A stretch of DNA of 5,124 bases, from positions 1 through 5,124 of the forward strand of contig JACPQZ010000051.1 in assembly GCA_016190205.1 (NCBI GenBank), in the 5' to 3' direction. A program made the position numbers and the translations under genes. Below are positions 736 through 5,124 of this stretch, piece by piece. Position 1 is the first letter of the stretch. The number at the start of each line of letters is the position of its first letter. The notes beneath the pieces were generated by a model, which saw only the letters and a program-made list of their open reading frames with translations, was not told the DNA's origin and did not search any database. This stretch comes from Candidatus Omnitrophota bacterium. GTDB taxonomy: Bacteria; Omnitrophota; JACPQZ01.

Positions 736-1803
736 ATGACGCTACCGGTTCTTACAACGGGCGATGACGTTCTGGCGGTCGTAGACTACCTGCGCAATAA
801 GCCCATGGGAGCAAGCCTATCTGAGGCAAAGGCAGTTCTGAAGAGAGTCATAGATCCGAGAAAGATCACGGGCTTCGTAGCCTGGGAGATCATCCAGAAG
901 GAAGGCGAAAGAATCAAACTAGCTCCCAAGGGGTGGGAGCTAGCCAGAAAGACGAGACCTGCTTCCCAAATACTCTCCGACATTCTCAGTGGCATTGCAC
1001 CTTATCGGTCCGCCCTGGAATTGATTTACCACCAGAATCTTCCTGAAGTCACGAATGCGGACGTGGCGGCACACTGGCATGAACACCACTCCGAAGCTAC
1101 GGGAACCGACAATGAAACGACTCTGAAAGATCAGGCTGTCTGCTTCTTCCGTCTCTGCGAAGCCGCCGATCTCGGCAAGCTTGTTATCGGGAGAAAAGGG
1201 CAGACAACACGGTTTCAGCCTGTCCGCGAGAAACTCCAAGCGTTCATTGAGGCTGGCCCTTCAAGTCCTCCGTGGGTAGAGACCCCCCTGCGAACAGAAG
1301 AGCAACCACCAGAAACCGCAGCAGAGACAGGAGCGCCTCCGGTTCAGCCGGAACCGCCCACGAAACAAGATGAGAAGAAGACCGAGAAGCTACGGGTCTT
1401 TATCTCTCATGGAGAGAATATGCAGATCGTGGAGCAGGTTCAGACAATGCTAGGCATCGCCGATATCGCCTGCGAAGTGGCGGTCAAGGAGGAAAGCACA
1501 GCGATCCCCGTGCCAGAAAAGGTCTTCTCAGCAATGCGTCGTTGCGCTGCTGGCATTATCAGCGTAACCGCGGACGAGAGGAACAAAGGAAGCGACGGGA
1601 AGTACTCTATCAATGAGAACGTGTTGATAGAGATCGGTGCTGCCTTTGTGCTATATGACAAGCGCGTCGTACTGCTCTGGGACAAGCGCCTGCCCGTGCC
1701 GTCCAATCTGCAAGGACTGTATCGTTGCGAATTCGAGGGAAGCGAACTCTCTTGGACTGCCGGAATGAAGTTGATGAAGGCAATTCAAGGATTCAAGAAA
1801 TGA
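736..1803 (+). CDS. TIR-domain effector with winged-helix-like N-terminus (probable anti-phage defence)
   Basis: A 355-residue cytosolic protein. Residues 1-175 look like two winged-helix-like units (around 8-70 and 95-175; the second, with ETTLKDQAVCFF, resembles DUF5343-type domains). Residues 176-216 are a Pro/Glu/Thr-rich linker. Residues 219-355 form a TIR domain of the bacterial TIR-like family (the PF10137 type found in CBASS and Pycsar effectors): strand LRVFISHG, then AIPVPEKVFSAMRRC, then SINENVLIEIGAAF, where E299 sits at the position of the catalytic glutamate of NAD+-hydrolysing TIRs, and a C-terminal LYRCEFEGSELSW segment. Such TIRs usually deplete NAD+ on infection; that activity is inferred here. 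The trigger is unknown: no cyclic-nucleotide-binding domain is recognised, and the N-terminus may sense or bind DNA. The start is fixed by AAGGAGG at 721-727. The family name is recalled from motifs, not searched. Confidence 0.88.
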   Translation: MTLPVLTTGDDVLAVVDYLRNKPMGASLSEAKAVLKRVIDPRKITGFVAWEIIQKEGERIKLAPKGWELARKTRPASQILSDILSGIAPYRSALELIYHQNLPEVTNADVAAHWHEHHSEATGTDNETTLKDQAVCFFRLCEAADLGKLVIGRKGQTTRFQPVREKLQAFIEAGPSSPPWVETPLRTEEQPPETAAETGAPPVQPEPPTKQDEKKTEKLRVFISHGENMQIVEQVQTMLGIADIACEVAVKEESTAIPVPEKVFSAMRRCAAGIISVTADERNKGSDGKYSINENVLIEIGAAFVLYDKRVVLLWDKRLPVPSNLQGLYRCEFEGSELSWTAGMKLMKAIQGFKK

Positions 1804-1805
1804 AG

Positions 1806-1875
1806 ACCCAACAATCGGGTGGAGCTTACGCTTTGCCCGCGGCGGGCAAAACGACGCTCACCCGTGACGTTAGGC
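1806..1875 (+). other. attC2 recombination site
   Basis: R'' ACCCAAC (1806-1812), L'' CGGGTGGAGC (1816-1825), L' GCTCACCCG (1856-1864) and R' GTTAGGC (1869-1875). L'' and L' pair perfectly apart from one extrahelical G. The interior is a perfect 9-bp hairpin, TTTGCCCGC (1832-1840) with GCGGGCAAA (1842-1850). 70 bp; the clearest attC of the window. Confidence 0.92.
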
Positions 1876-1918
1876 ACCGCCAGAACGCCGCGGCACTTGC
1901 CGACCATCGGAGGCGCCC

Positions 1919-2341
1919 ATGGGTGATCGTGAAGACCTAGCAGATGCAGTTGAGGAGCTCGGAGCTGTCCTGAAAAACGTGGTCTTCGACAGACCTCATC
2001 TCGTTCTGGCCGACGTTCTAGGGGAGCTCCGGGAGGCCTGGGAACGTGCAAGCGCTGCTGTGCGCAGCGTCGTCACGAGCCTGCGCGCCGGCGGTCTCGA
2101 TCTTGAAGAGAAACTCGCAACAGCGGGTTTACTAGGGTCGAGTCTCCGTGCCAAGCTTCGCGGCTTTAAGGCCGCGCTAGCTCGATGGCGCGCTGGGGCC
2201 ACTACGGGGACGCTGTTACGAGTACTAGGGTGGGGGAACGTCTTCCTTGGGAGCCTTGCGTCCGTCCTTCCCGGTGCGGAGGTCCTCAAGGAGTACAAAG
2301 AGGCTGTGGAGCAGTCTGTCCTGGACGTCCACGAGCAATGA
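1919..2341 (+). CDS. Hypothetical helical protein, unknown function
   Basis: A 140-residue protein not recognised as any named family. It is predicted almost wholly helical: acidic N-terminal helices (1-60), a basic amphipathic middle (75-95, with RAKLRGFKAALARWR), then a hydrophobic stretch around 97-119 (TLLRVLGWGNVFLGSLASVL) that could be one membrane-associated or amphipathic helix, and an acidic tail. The ATG at 1919 has GGAGG (1909-1913) with 5-base spacing. The stop TGA is 11 bases before the orphan R'' box, and the HEPN-like gene begins 35 bases after the stop, so both are likely read from one transcript. It might be a small accessory, immunity or antitoxin-like partner of that gene, but nothing in the sequence proves this. 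There are no Cys or His clusters. Confidence 0.8.
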   Translation: MGDREDLADAVEELGAVLKNVVFDRPHLVLADVLGELREAWERASAAVRSVVTSLRAGGLDLEEKLATAGLLGSSLRAKLRGFKAALARWRAGATTGTLLRVLGWGNVFLGSLASVLPGAEVLKEYKEAVEQSVLDVHEQ

Positions 2342-2352
2342 AGATGAGCAGT

Positions 2353-2359
2353 GCCTAAC
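2353..2359 (+). other. Orphan attC R'' box between two genes
   Basis: GCCTAAC is the exact reverse complement of the entry box GTTAGGC (1869-1875). It follows the first gene's stop by 11 bases, where an attC should start, but no L'' or L' stem or GTT box follows before the next ribosome binding site (AAGGAG, 2365-2370). It is best read as the remnant of a deleted attC. Confidence 0.6.
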
Positions 2360-2376
2360 CCCGCAAGGAGAGGGCG

Positions 2377-3276
2377 ATGTCTCCAGACGAGGCGTCCGAA
2401 AGGCTCCTGTCGCGCAGCATCGTTGCGCGGGAGGATATCGCGCGGGCGAAGGGTTTCATCGTCGCGGCGACTGAAACGAGCACGGATGCCCTCACCGAGC
2501 AGTGGCTACGGGCGGAAATGGGCGCCGTTCCGACACACGTCGACATTCAGGCGGCTGGAGCGGATGACACGCTTACTCTTCTGGCCCGTGCATATAGCCT
2601 GCGGCTCGGTTTCTATCAGGCGGTTTGGGAGCTCGTCGCGGCCTGCGAAGTGCTTCCCGGCGCTCCGGCCAATTGGCAGGCGAGTGCCACCTGGCGGGAT
2701 CCCCACGGGGCAGGTGGACTGCAACTCGGCTCAGTCAACTGCCTGTTTCCGGCCGCCATCAGACGGCCGCCATTGGCGCCCGCGCCGTCGACCGATCCCG
2801 ATGTCTTTCTTCAGGGGGCAGACTGTGTGAGCCTCCACCAAGGTGTTCACGAAGCCATCACTCAGAGTCTTGCCTGTTTTCGAAGAGGCTTGTACCTTCC
2901 GGCAATCGTCATGCTTGCGGCTGGCACGGAGGCCGAGTGGAGCGAATGCGGCACGGCGGTGGCCACGAAGCTTGGAAACAACAAGCTGCAGACGCTGCTT
3001 GGCGACCCATTCGCGAGCCTCAGCCGGAAGGTTACTGAGATCAGGAGAACGCTCGAAGGCTCCACTGGCAAGGATCTCTTGAAGGCAGCGGGCACGAACC
3101 TCGCGAGGGTGACGGACGCAGAGGTATGGACAACCACCCTCCGCGAACGTCGAAACGCAGTTCATTGGGGAAAGGCACAGAGCTTCATCGCGCAGCACAG
3201 TGACGCAGCCTCACTCTTGCTTGCCGCGCCGCTTCACCTCGGCACTCTCGAAACGGTGCGGGGGGCGTGCGTCTGA
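2377..3276 (+). CDS. HEPN-like protein (DUF4145-type C-terminus), possible RNase
   Basis: A 299-residue soluble protein. The N-terminal half (1-150) is helical with no recognised motif. Residues 156-295 read like a HEPN or DUF4145-type four-helix domain: an AITQSLACFRRGLYLPAIVML helix pair, a variable middle, then LRERRNAVHWG with R258-x4-H263 (N260), the Rx4-6H signature of HEPN ribonucleases. HEPN proteins often act as toxins or abortive-infection RNases, but many DUF4145 members have no proven activity. Start ATG 2377 has AAGGAG (2365-2370) at 6-base spacing. The gene lies 35 bp after the helical protein gene and its stop is ten bases before R'' GCCTAAC at 3287. The fold call rests on pattern only. 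Confidence 0.82.
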   Translation: MSPDEASERLLSRSIVAREDIARAKGFIVAATETSTDALTEQWLRAEMGAVPTHVDIQAAGADDTLTLLARAYSLRLGFYQAVWELVAACEVLPGAPANWQASATWRDPHGAGGLQLGSVNCLFPAAIRRPPLAPAPSTDPDVFLQGADCVSLHQGVHEAITQSLACFRRGLYLPAIVMLAAGTEAEWSECGTAVATKLGNNKLQTLLGDPFASLSRKVTEIRRTLEGSTGKDLLKAAGTNLARVTDAEVWTTTLRERRNAVHWGKAQSFIAQHSDAASLLLAAPLHLGTLETVRGACV

Positions 3277-3286
3277 GCCGCGGAGT

Positions 3287-3527
3287 GCCTAACAACACAA
3301 TCGAGCCGGCGCGGTGATAGCTGGTCGTTCAACTGTTGCGGTAGTGGTGCGCGCGGCTCATTGTGGTCGATGCGCCGACGCGCGCGGCCGTCGCTCCGGT
3401 CCAGTCGGGTGACCCCGGGTGGCTCGATATCTCCGAGCCTGGCGGCTCACGGTAGGTGGGCCGCGGACCGCGCCGGCGCTACGCAGTCGGCGCATCGGGG
3501 CGGCGGCACAAGAGCGCCCCGTTAGAT
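3287..3527 (+). other. Oversized, structured attC-like region between cassettes 3 and 4
   Basis: R'' GCCTAAC (3287-3293) opens the site and R' GTTAGAT (3521-3527) closes it, 241 bp apart, far longer than the other attC sites here. A good attC-like stem lies at 3296-3312 with 3351-3365 (CACAAT-C-GAGCC-G-GCGC with GCGC-GGCTC-ATTGTG, two extrahelical bases), but the following R' would be GTC, not GTT. A second perfect 12-bp inverted repeat (3368-3379 with 3486-3497), an 11-bp repeat (3305-3315 with 3467-3477), a 6-bp hairpin (3421-3439) and GGGGCG/CGCCCC (3497-3502 with 3515-3520) fill the rest. No gene of its own is seen: the cyclase frame is open from GTG 3456, but a strong ribosome binding site favours ATG 3549. 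It may be attC3 with a mutated R' plus a short gene-less cassette. Confidence 0.55.
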
Positions 3528-3537
3528 CGCGCTGCAA

Positions 3538-3543
3538 GAGGAG
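3538..3543 (+). promoter_or_regulatory. Ribosome binding site setting the cyclase start
   Basis: GAGGAG with 5-base spacing to ATG 3549. It decides against the longer in-frame start at GTG 3456, which lies in the preceding cassette's end region and would cross the recombination point. Confidence 0.85.
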
Positions 3544-3548
3544 ACGAC

Positions 3549-4169
3549 ATGGTGACAGAGCGCCCGAGGCTTCCTACGACCGATGACTTACTGGTTGTAG
3601 TGTTCGACATGTGCTCATCGTCAGACATCATTGAGGGTCTCACGCTCAGGGGTGAAGTGCACCGTCTGGAAACATTTTTAACTGCGGTCAAACGGTATCT
3701 ACGTGACAATGCGGAGGACAATCGTTTTGAAGCTTACAAGTTCATGGGCGATGGATGGATCTTGCTGTTCCCGGCCGACATCGACGGAGCGGTTCTGTTG
3801 TCATTCTTGAAGGGACTTTGTGAGTTCTTTCGGCGAAAGCTCAAAAGGAAGGTCTTGCGTTACCTGGACGCAATGCCCCAGGTCACGGGAGTAACTCTGG
3901 GCCTCGAACGTGGGCCGCTGCTCAAGACTGTGATGTTTAGGCAAAGGGAATACATCGGGCGGGCACTGAACATCGCATGTCGTTTGCAGACCGCGATAAA
4001 GGACAAGGACAAATCCCCCGCGTACAAGGCTCTTGTGTCGAACGCGGTATACAACGACTACTTTCGAAAGCTTCCGGGGGCGAAGTCGATACCTGTCACT
4101 CGGACCCTGAGGAATATTCGCGGCGGCACCGCGTTCAAGTGTCGCAAGTTGACCCTTGCCAGCAAATGA
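3549..4169 (+). CDS. Stand-alone class III nucleotidyl cyclase
   Basis: A 206-residue cytosolic protein that is almost only a catalytic domain. The strand LLVVVFDMCSSSD places D20 as the first metal-binding Asp. YKFMGDGWILLF gives K64 (base-recognition position), G67 and the second metal-binding D68. GLERGPLLKTVMFRQREYIGR leads to GRALNIACRLQ, with N141 and R145 as the transition-state Asn and Arg, and E134 where purine-specific enzymes often carry Asp or another base-contact residue. All key residues are present, so a homodimeric active cyclase making a 3',5'-cyclic nucleotide is likely. K64 hints at ATP, but the K/E pair leaves the base open and a pyrimidine product as in Pycsar cannot be excluded. 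There is no regulatory domain or membrane segment. It is the only gene of its cassette; no dedicated receptor is next to it. Confidence 0.9.
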   Translation: MVTERPRLPTTDDLLVVVFDMCSSSDIIEGLTLRGEVHRLETFLTAVKRYLRDNAEDNRFEAYKFMGDGWILLFPADIDGAVLLSFLKGLCEFFRRKLKRKVLRYLDAMPQVTGVTLGLERGPLLKTVMFRQREYIGRALNIACRLQTAIKDKDKSPAYKALVSNAVYNDYFRKLPGAKSIPVTRTLRNIRGGTAFKCRKLTLASK

Positions 4170-4176
4170 GGTCTCG

Positions 4177-4243
4177 ATCTAACCCCACACTCAAGGCGGT
4201 CGCGCGCAAAAGCGACGCGCGCCGCTTAGCGTGAACGTTAGAC
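4177..4243 (+). other. attC4 recombination site
   Basis: R'' ATCTAAC (4177-4183) and R' GTTAGAC (4237-4243). The outer CAC (4188-4190) pairs with GTG (4231-4233), AAG-G-CGG pairs with CCGCTT with an extrahelical G, and CGCGCG (4201-4206) pairs with CGCGCG (4216-4221), with T4200 bulged. 67 bp. Cut expected between G4237 and T4238. Confidence 0.88.
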
Positions 4244-4248
4244 CTCGC

Positions 4249-4256
4249 GGGGGGGG
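4249..4256 (+). repeat. Run of eight G residues before the cassette 5 gene
   Basis: An eight-G homopolymer ends four bases before GTG 4261. It may act as a poor Shine-Dalgarno substitute or be a slippage-prone tract. With the start at 4261 the tract is outside the gene and slippage would alter spacing, not frame. Confidence 0.6.
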
Positions 4257-4260
4257 CGGA

Positions 4261-4923
4261 GTGCGACCAATCACGGCCGAAGAACCCTGCGTCGGAACCC
4301 TACCCCGTATAGCCGACGTGAGGCACGAACGGTTCGACCAGCTCGGACAGGGGCGGCGGGTCATTCACTCCTGGTTCGAAAGAGGCTGGAGAGGCCGAGA
4401 TAACCCTGAGTCGGAGTGCTTTGAACCGTTCATATTCACCTGGATTGCGCTCAACGGATGGGCCGAGTGCGTAACAGATCTCGATCGACGCGACCAGGAC
4501 TGGGTGCAGAGCATCGCGGCCGAGCCTGACCTGGCCGCAGTGTTTCATTCCCTTCTTTCGGAGGATCCGGTCATCAATGAAGCCGCTGTCGAGTTCACCC
4601 GCTTCTGGCCCATTCCACGGCTCCAGGCCCTCCGGCGGCGTGCCGAGCTGATGAACTCGTGGCACTCGAACGCACAGGCAACGGAGACCTTTGCTAGAGC
4701 GGGGGTGGACCTCGGCCCTCGATGTGCCTTCCGGCACCAGGTGCGCCACGAGGGGATACCCCTCGACTGGTCTCACTTCCTGTGGGCGCTCTACAGGGCA
4801 CGATGCAACCTGTTTCATGGTGAAAAGAACCCATACCATTGGGGTGACCAAGCCGTGATAGCCCGCGGTTTCAAGGTCTTGGTACACGCGATGAGTCGGT
4901 GGCGTGCTTTCGAACAACGCTAG
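4261..4923 (+). CDS. HEPN-like protein with Rx4H motif, unknown function
   Basis: A 220-residue protein, Trp-, Arg- and His-rich, with no membrane segment. The N-terminal part (RRVIHSWFERGWRGR, then ECFEPFIFTWIALNGWAE, about 33-70) looks like the first helices of a HEPN-type bundle. The C-terminus reads LYRARCNLFHGEKNPYHWGDQ, with R181-x4-H186 and N183, the HEPN signature, followed by a final helix. This arrangement is common in uncharacterised bacterial HEPN-fold proteins; ribonuclease activity is possible but unproven. The start is uncertain: GTG 4261 lies just after the cassette junction, preceded only by a G-rich run (4249-4259). The frame is open back to GTG 4231 inside attC4, which would span the junction and is unlikely; GTG 4318 is another option. 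The stop TAG lies 22 bases before the degenerate R''. Confidence 0.78.
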   Translation: MRPITAEEPCVGTLPRIADVRHERFDQLGQGRRVIHSWFERGWRGRDNPESECFEPFIFTWIALNGWAECVTDLDRRDQDWVQSIAAEPDLAAVFHSLLSEDPVINEAAVEFTRFWPIPRLQALRRRAELMNSWHSNAQATETFARAGVDLGPRCAFRHQVRHEGIPLDWSHFLWALYRARCNLFHGEKNPYHWGDQAVIARGFKVLVHAMSRWRAFEQR

Positions 4924-4945
4924 TGTTGGCAGCACGCGACACTGT

Positions 4946-5002
4946 GAGTATCATGCGGCTCAAGCTGCCGGTCCGGCCCGCAGCTTAGCCGCGGCGTTCG
5001 GG
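4946..5002 (+). other. attC5 recombination site with degenerate R''
   Basis: L'' GCGGCT-C-AAGCTGC (4955-4968) and L' GCAGCTTAGCCGC (4980-4992) pair over 13 bp with one extrahelical C, a very good attC stem, with an 11-base loop. R' is GTTCGGG (4996-5002), which keeps GTT but departs from the RRRY tail. The R'' position holds GAGTATC, lacking the AAC core. Confidence 0.75.
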
Positions 5003-5124
5003 TTCAAGAGAGATGGGATTGCGGAAACGATCTGCGGGGTGTATGGTTGCTCCGGACTGGCAAACCATTGGCCCGCAAGACCGTTCGAGTTCATGCCGTT
5101 CTTGATTGCCGACGGGACCCGGCA
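4997..5124. other. Start of a sixth unit, truncated by the window end
   Basis: This is sequence after the attC5 cut point. On the + strand a frame from GTG 5039 (VYGCSGLANHWPARP...) is open to the window edge. On the - strand a frame is open from the edge down to a stop at 4960-4962 inside attC5 (ending ...NPNAAAKLRAGPAA). Both have GC-rich third positions, so the coding strand cannot be decided. No ribosome binding site is convincing. It could be cassette 6 or flanking chromosome. Confidence 0.4.

Follow-up and report, generated by a model that had tools for sequence, protein, structure and literature searches.

A stand-alone class III nucleotidyl cyclase from a rare, unannotated family carried in an integron-type cassette array

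The window (the whole stretch of DNA analyzed here, 5,124 bases, which is the complete contig C40, one 5.1-kb MAG contig) contains at positions 3549-4169 a genuine gene for a small stand-alone class III nucleotidyl cyclase. We consider it probable, with some reservation, that the gene and its flanking site form an integron cassette for a catalytically competent, homodimeric, single-domain enzyme that is distinct from both the PycCs and the ordinary adenylate cyclases with which we compared it, and whose receptor is encoded elsewhere. The genome behind the window is 1.65 Mb in 76 contigs and 92.8% complete, and the G+C content of the window (59.2%) agrees with that of other sampled contigs (57-60%), although short contigs can always be misassigned during binning. 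The cyclase open reading frame (ORF) starts with an ATG at 3549 and has its stop at 4169, and when aligned with its closest relative, L017 (∼60% identical), codon positions 1, 2, and 3 differ in 31%, 23%, and 66% of codons, respectively, a pattern indicating that the ORF is protein-coding and under purifying selection. The features of the window are as follows.

165-638: ORF of 157 amino acids, PD-(D/E)XK-type nuclease-like by eye (VDLIAIRKDH ... VLIQTKGGSA), no profile match
710: R' site
736-1803, forward strand: TIR-domain protein of 355 amino acids in a neighboring cassette (PF10137, 2.1e-15, at residues 220-334)
1806-1875, forward strand: attC of the TIR cassette, 70 nt
2377-3276, forward strand: ORF of 299 amino acids with an RRNAVH (RxxxxH) motif, HEPN-like by eye, no profile match
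3287-3527, forward strand: non-coding structured stretch of 241 nt, from R'' GCCTAAC to R' GTTAGAT (fold -75.8 kcal/mol)
3521-3527, forward strand: R' site GTTAGAT (matches GTTRRRY), upstream boundary of the cyclase cassette
3537-3543, forward strand: AGAGGAG, likely ribosome-binding site of the cyclase gene, read from the sequence
3549-4169, forward strand: class III nucleotidyl cyclase, 206 amino acids, single domain (ORF, family alignment, AF2 model, PDB fold matches)
4177-4243, forward strand: attC of the cyclase cassette, 67 nt, with canonical R'' and R'
4231-4923, forward strand: next cassette ORF, 230 amino acids, with an RCNLFH (RxxxxH) motif, HEPN-like by eye, no profile match

The window is organized as a row of same-strand ORFs with attC-like sites between them, and it contains two full canonical attC-like structures, compared to an expectation of 0.06 per dinucleotide shuffle, with only one of 300 shuffles reaching two. 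The preliminary description of this DNA had taken the cyclase to be cassette-borne, and the arrangement bears this out, with a single ORF lying between an R' at 3521 and its own attC downstream. The stretch at 3287-3527 is strongly self-complementary and extends beyond the usual attC length; it is perhaps an over-long or interrupted attC, possibly with an insert. Further upstream, an R'' (GCCTAAC) at 2353-2359 follows the ORF at 1919-2341 and has no R' partner ahead of the next ORF; if this is a truncated attC, then the ORFs at 1919-2341 and 2377-3276 may constitute one fused cassette. No intact integrase was seen with the array, and integron integrase sequences in the same genome (G000) are degraded C-terminal fragments on the short contigs C48 (L077, positions 4712-5077) and C55, none of which is over the cut-off. 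Contig C55 (L076) also carries a 60-nt attC and an HNH-type ORF. The pattern of one ORF with one attC, in arrays of unknown and defense-like ORFs, resembles that of defense cassettes in Vibrio chromosomal and mobile integrons (PMC12409362), although the array in the window is without a visible intact integrase. A narrow search of open-access papers found no report of a cyclase as integron cassette cargo.

Structure prediction agrees with the initial assignment to the class III cyclases. An AF2 model built from the single sequence was useless (pLDDT 38), and we instead used a nine-sequence family alignment, which yielded a ligand-free monomer model with a pLDDT of 91.5 and a pTM of 0.88. A single cyclase domain spans the whole of this model and there is no second one, as expected for the minimal enzyme without regulatory domain that had been proposed. 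The hits from Foldseek and VIA-align 2 are consistently adenylyl and guanylyl cyclases of class III (E values down to 2.5e-10, Z scores up to 18.7). The top 50 PDB structural matches are all class III cyclases, the known structures of adenylyl and guanylyl cyclases aligning at Z ∼18, and the uridylate cyclase AnPycC matches at E 1.1e-8. The earlier claim of a complete metal, Asn, and Arg active site also stands, and the six residues listed here are all present in the window protein and invariant across the family (9/9 aligned).

3606-3608, forward strand: codon of D20, first metal Asp, invariant in the family, adenylate cyclases, and PycCs
3738-3740, forward strand: codon of K64, base-reading Lys (Lys in 9/9 family members, 24/26 adenylate cyclases, 2/11 PycCs)
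3750-3752, forward strand: codon of D68, second metal Asp, invariant
3948-3950, forward strand: codon of E134, base-reading acid, family-specific Glu (9/9 family members, 0/27 adenylate cyclases, 0/11 PycCs)
3969-3971, forward strand: codon of N141, transition-state Asn, invariant in the family and adenylate cyclases
3981-3983, forward strand: codon of R145, transition-state Arg (Arg in 9/9 family members; Lys in 11/11 PycCs compared)

By analogy to the class III fold and these residues, the two Asp would bind the metals, and the Asn and Arg would stabilize the transition state, presumably within a homodimer. We regard it as highly improbable that this is a catalytically silent cyclase-fold protein serving as a binder or regulator, a role to which the unusual base-acid residue and the lack of a regulatory domain might lend themselves, as all of the metal and transition-state residues are kept in all members across phyla.

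The K64/E134 pair, flagged at the outset as an unusual base-recognition pair, is correctly placed: E134 precedes the catalytic Asn by seven residues and the catalytic Arg by 11, K64 precedes the metal Asp by four, and D157/A164/R168 and K101 are spaced identically in Ma1120 (PMC4215837). A MAFFT column pairs E134 with an Asp or Glu two residues upstream in adenylate cyclases, and we set this aside in favor of spacing from the catalytic Asn, following PMC4215837. Among the sequences compared, there is no characterized precedent for Glu as the base acid. In adenylyl cyclases of the Ma1120 type, adenine is contacted at N1 by the Lys and at its 6-amino group by the Asp (PMC4215837). If K64 and E134 read the base in the same manner, the Lys would need an acceptor at N1 or N3, and the acid an amino group at C6 or C4. 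Cytosine presents the same pattern as adenine at N3 and N4, and uracil and guanine do not, and so the adenylyl-cyclase geometry predicts ATP as the most likely substrate, with CTP second.

The family to which the window protein belongs is rare and unnamed, with 10 members found, including the window protein itself. Peptide seeds used against genome and viral collections, and tblastn against plasmids and phages, found no relatives; a degenerate pattern, YIGRx(L/I/V/M)N(I/V)A(A/C/S)RLQ, recovered eight in viral and species-genome collections, and one further relative came from searching the phylum of the Opitutaceae genome. Two other candidates were discarded: L002 is a spurious match across stops within secD-type coding on the opposite strand, and L003 is an ordinary multidomain cyclase. 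The relatives are stand-alone proteins of ∼200-230 amino acids with 30-61% identity to the window protein and ∼33 invariant residues in common, and a regulatory domain is absent from all 10 members. A profile built from nine members scores members at 275-319 bits and other cyclases compared at no more than 33 bits, which argues for a discrete family. Its distribution is evidently rare and patchy, as five phylum-level draws totaling ∼1,440 genomes yielded only six that carry it, five of the six being the seed genomes. The window protein has no Pfam, NCBIfam, or PADLOC match and no meaningful PDB sequence match, placing it at a distance from any described subfamily, and the Pfam Guanylate_cyc model (PF00211) is silent on all nine members scanned. 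Judged from these sequences, the family is a rare, unannotated branch of the class III cyclases, likely active and with an unusual base pair. The class III cyclases gain a distinct branch that is missed by the standard family databases and defense scanners used here, and that has a novel, putative Lys/Glu base-reading pair.

Single-domain cyclases of this size occur in Pycsar immunity, and a Pycsar identity had been raised for the protein, with phylogenetic placement as a check. As comparators we used 11 PycCs, drawn from two genuine Pycsar loci, L039 (PycTIR with PycC) and L040 (PycTM with PycC), and from plasmid loci and PDB chains. The tree has three groups, namely the family (100/100, with a stem of 2.64), the PycCs (94/85; PycC clade A is not represented), and the adenylate cyclases (85/94). 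The best tree places the family outside of both other groups as a separate, long-stemmed clade, and so it does not lie deep within the housekeeping adenylate cyclases. A tree uniting the family with PycC clades B and D has a p-AU of 0.375 and is not rejected, and a deep kinship with PycC may therefore exist. It is nonetheless unlikely that the window protein is an orphan Pycsar PycC making cUMP or cCMP that has been parted from its effector by cassette shuffling. Such an origin is consistent with the unrejected union, with the general resemblance to PycCs such as BcPycC (7R65), AnPycC (8JSZ), and EaPycC (8JSF), which are also small stand-alone cyclases of the same fold in defense-rich or mobile settings, and with a Gly-Arg/Lys ahead of the catalytic helix that is common to the family and PycC clades B and D. 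It would also fit the TIR protein two cassettes upstream, since PF10137 is the CAP12/Pycsar TIR Pfam family. However, the family has Arg at 145 where the PycCs compared have Lys, its first strand is preceded by only ∼10 residues, and it lacks the residues described in the base pockets of BcPycC, AnPycC, and EaPycC (PMC11224242). The PADLOC PycC models do not match the window protein, and no PycTM or PycTIR was found in the window or beside any member examined. Some relatives have weak PycC profile matches (best 5.8e-6), which we consider to be generic because in 106 of 148 genomes the same model also picks up ordinary cyclases, with values reaching 1e-25. The window TIR protein, which also matches the PADLOC candidate PDC-S35 at ∼1e-7, has no recognizable cNMP-binding domain, and profile searches with its first 205 residues give no match to a cNMP-binding or any other family. 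By eye, this N-terminal part resembles two winged-helix domains. The sequence comparisons thus do not support a Pycsar reading of the window cyclase.

The relationship to ordinary adenylate cyclases is closer in some respects, with hhalign of the family profile giving 9.5e-13 for adenylate cyclases and 1.7e-8 for PycC. The family shares with the class III adenylyl/guanylyl cyclases CyaB (3R5G), CyaC (1WC0/1WC1), OaPAC, and Ma1120 a fold at Z ∼18, both metal Asp residues, the Asn and Arg, and the base-reading Lys, but differs from them in being only 13-16% identical, in having no PF00211 match and no regulatory domain, in forming its own clade, and in having Glu at the second base position rather than Thr or Asp. 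The same observations bear on a further alternative, that an ordinary adenylate cyclase gene was caught by a cassette and feeds a resident CRP/FNR-type receptor. The adenylyl-cyclase-like Lys and Arg, the hhalign result, and the two CRP/FNR-like proteins in the host would suit this account, which we find improbable given the separate clade with its long stem, the silence of PF00211, the Glu at the base position, and the lack of a regulatory domain in every member.

As for the receptor, the preliminary description had remarked that the cyclase comes without one of its own, and indeed none was found on the window contig, a result that is silent on the rest of the cell. The host encodes three proteins with a cNMP-binding domain (PF00027), the two CRP/FNR-like proteins and a patatin-like protein with a MinD-like part, and these may serve as receptors in trans. 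None of the three is a TIR or PycTM protein. The host genome has no match to a PF00211 cyclase, which, alongside the cNMP-binding proteins, is in keeping with the explanation that we favor. With neither a regulatory domain nor an adjacent receptor, control of the cyclase is probably through its expression or a trigger of some kind, and the product would find its receptor among proteins encoded elsewhere in the cell. Cassette mobility and the neighboring genes hint that this could be an accessory role in stress or anti-phage signaling.

The genomic contexts of the relatives make a defense role for the family plausible. Three members are in cassette arrays: that in the window, L017 (Deltaproteobacteria), where an R' (GTTAGGT) lies ∼27 nt before the cyclase start codon and the array also carries a HEPN-family protein (Hypoth_Ymh, 1.2e-24), and L013 (Opitutaceae), in an array with a 99-nt attC. 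In L012 (Nitrospirales; 791-4004), an AIPR/AbiU protein (PF10592, 7.7e-45; PADLOC AbiU, 1.3e-53), the cyclase, and a trypsin-like protease (LmuA-like, 3.8e-10) share a strand, the reading frames of AIPR and cyclase overlapping or abutting, and make up a candidate three-gene defense operon. Among the papers searched, none describes a cyclase with AIPR in phage defense. In L084 (a Verrucomicrobiota-side genome; 3884-5776), an HEPN-like ORF and the cyclase are followed 28 nt downstream by a 133-amino-acid membrane ORF, which is not recognized as a PycTM, whereas true PycTMs are. A search for the cyclase fixed beside an effector elsewhere had been suggested at the outset, but no partner gene recurs in two of the family loci examined, so that no system can be named and a signaling role is only putative.

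These loci raise the question of a new cyclic-nucleotide defense signal, in which the cyclase, turned on by infection, would make a product that triggers a toxic effector, the proposed partners being AIPR or the trypsin-like protease in Nitrospirales, the small membrane protein in Verrucomicrobiota, and HEPN or TIR proteins in other cassettes. This is compatible with the cassette-borne, competent cyclase that we favor, to which it adds a trigger and an effector, and we regard it as possible but doubtful. The one-strand arrangement of L012, the HEPN-family protein of the L017 array, the membrane ORF of L084, and the TIR cassette in the window are in its favor, as is the finding that in one Vibrio cholerae array at least 16 of 179 cassettes (about a tenth) are anti-phage when expressed (PMC12409362), integron cassettes being a recognized reservoir of small defense genes. 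Against this, there is the lack of a repeated partner, the mostly ordinary neighbors of L011, L014, and L016, the failure of the L084 membrane ORF to qualify as a PycTM, and the fact that cassette arrays are defense-rich regardless of neighbor. A more ambitious proposal, which we hold only as speculation and think rather unlikely, is that the family represents an undescribed form of immune signaling apart from Pycsar, CBASS, and Thoeris, with a mobile cyclase making cAMP or cCMP, effectors that vary with the host (AIPR with protease, small membrane protein, HEPN, TIR), and a synthase that can spread by itself in an integron cassette. If defense signaling is indeed its role, this would show that the part of such a system that makes the messenger can be mobile by itself as a cassette. 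Partners suited to direct testing are provided by the L012 operon and by the gene pair of L084. We note by eye that the L010 cyclase follows a PD-(D/E)XK-like ORF and that the L015 cyclase follows an HEPN-like ORF. In L084, a GTTAGGC just before the HEPN-like ORF and a GCCTAAC at the cyclase stop resemble cassette-end remnants.
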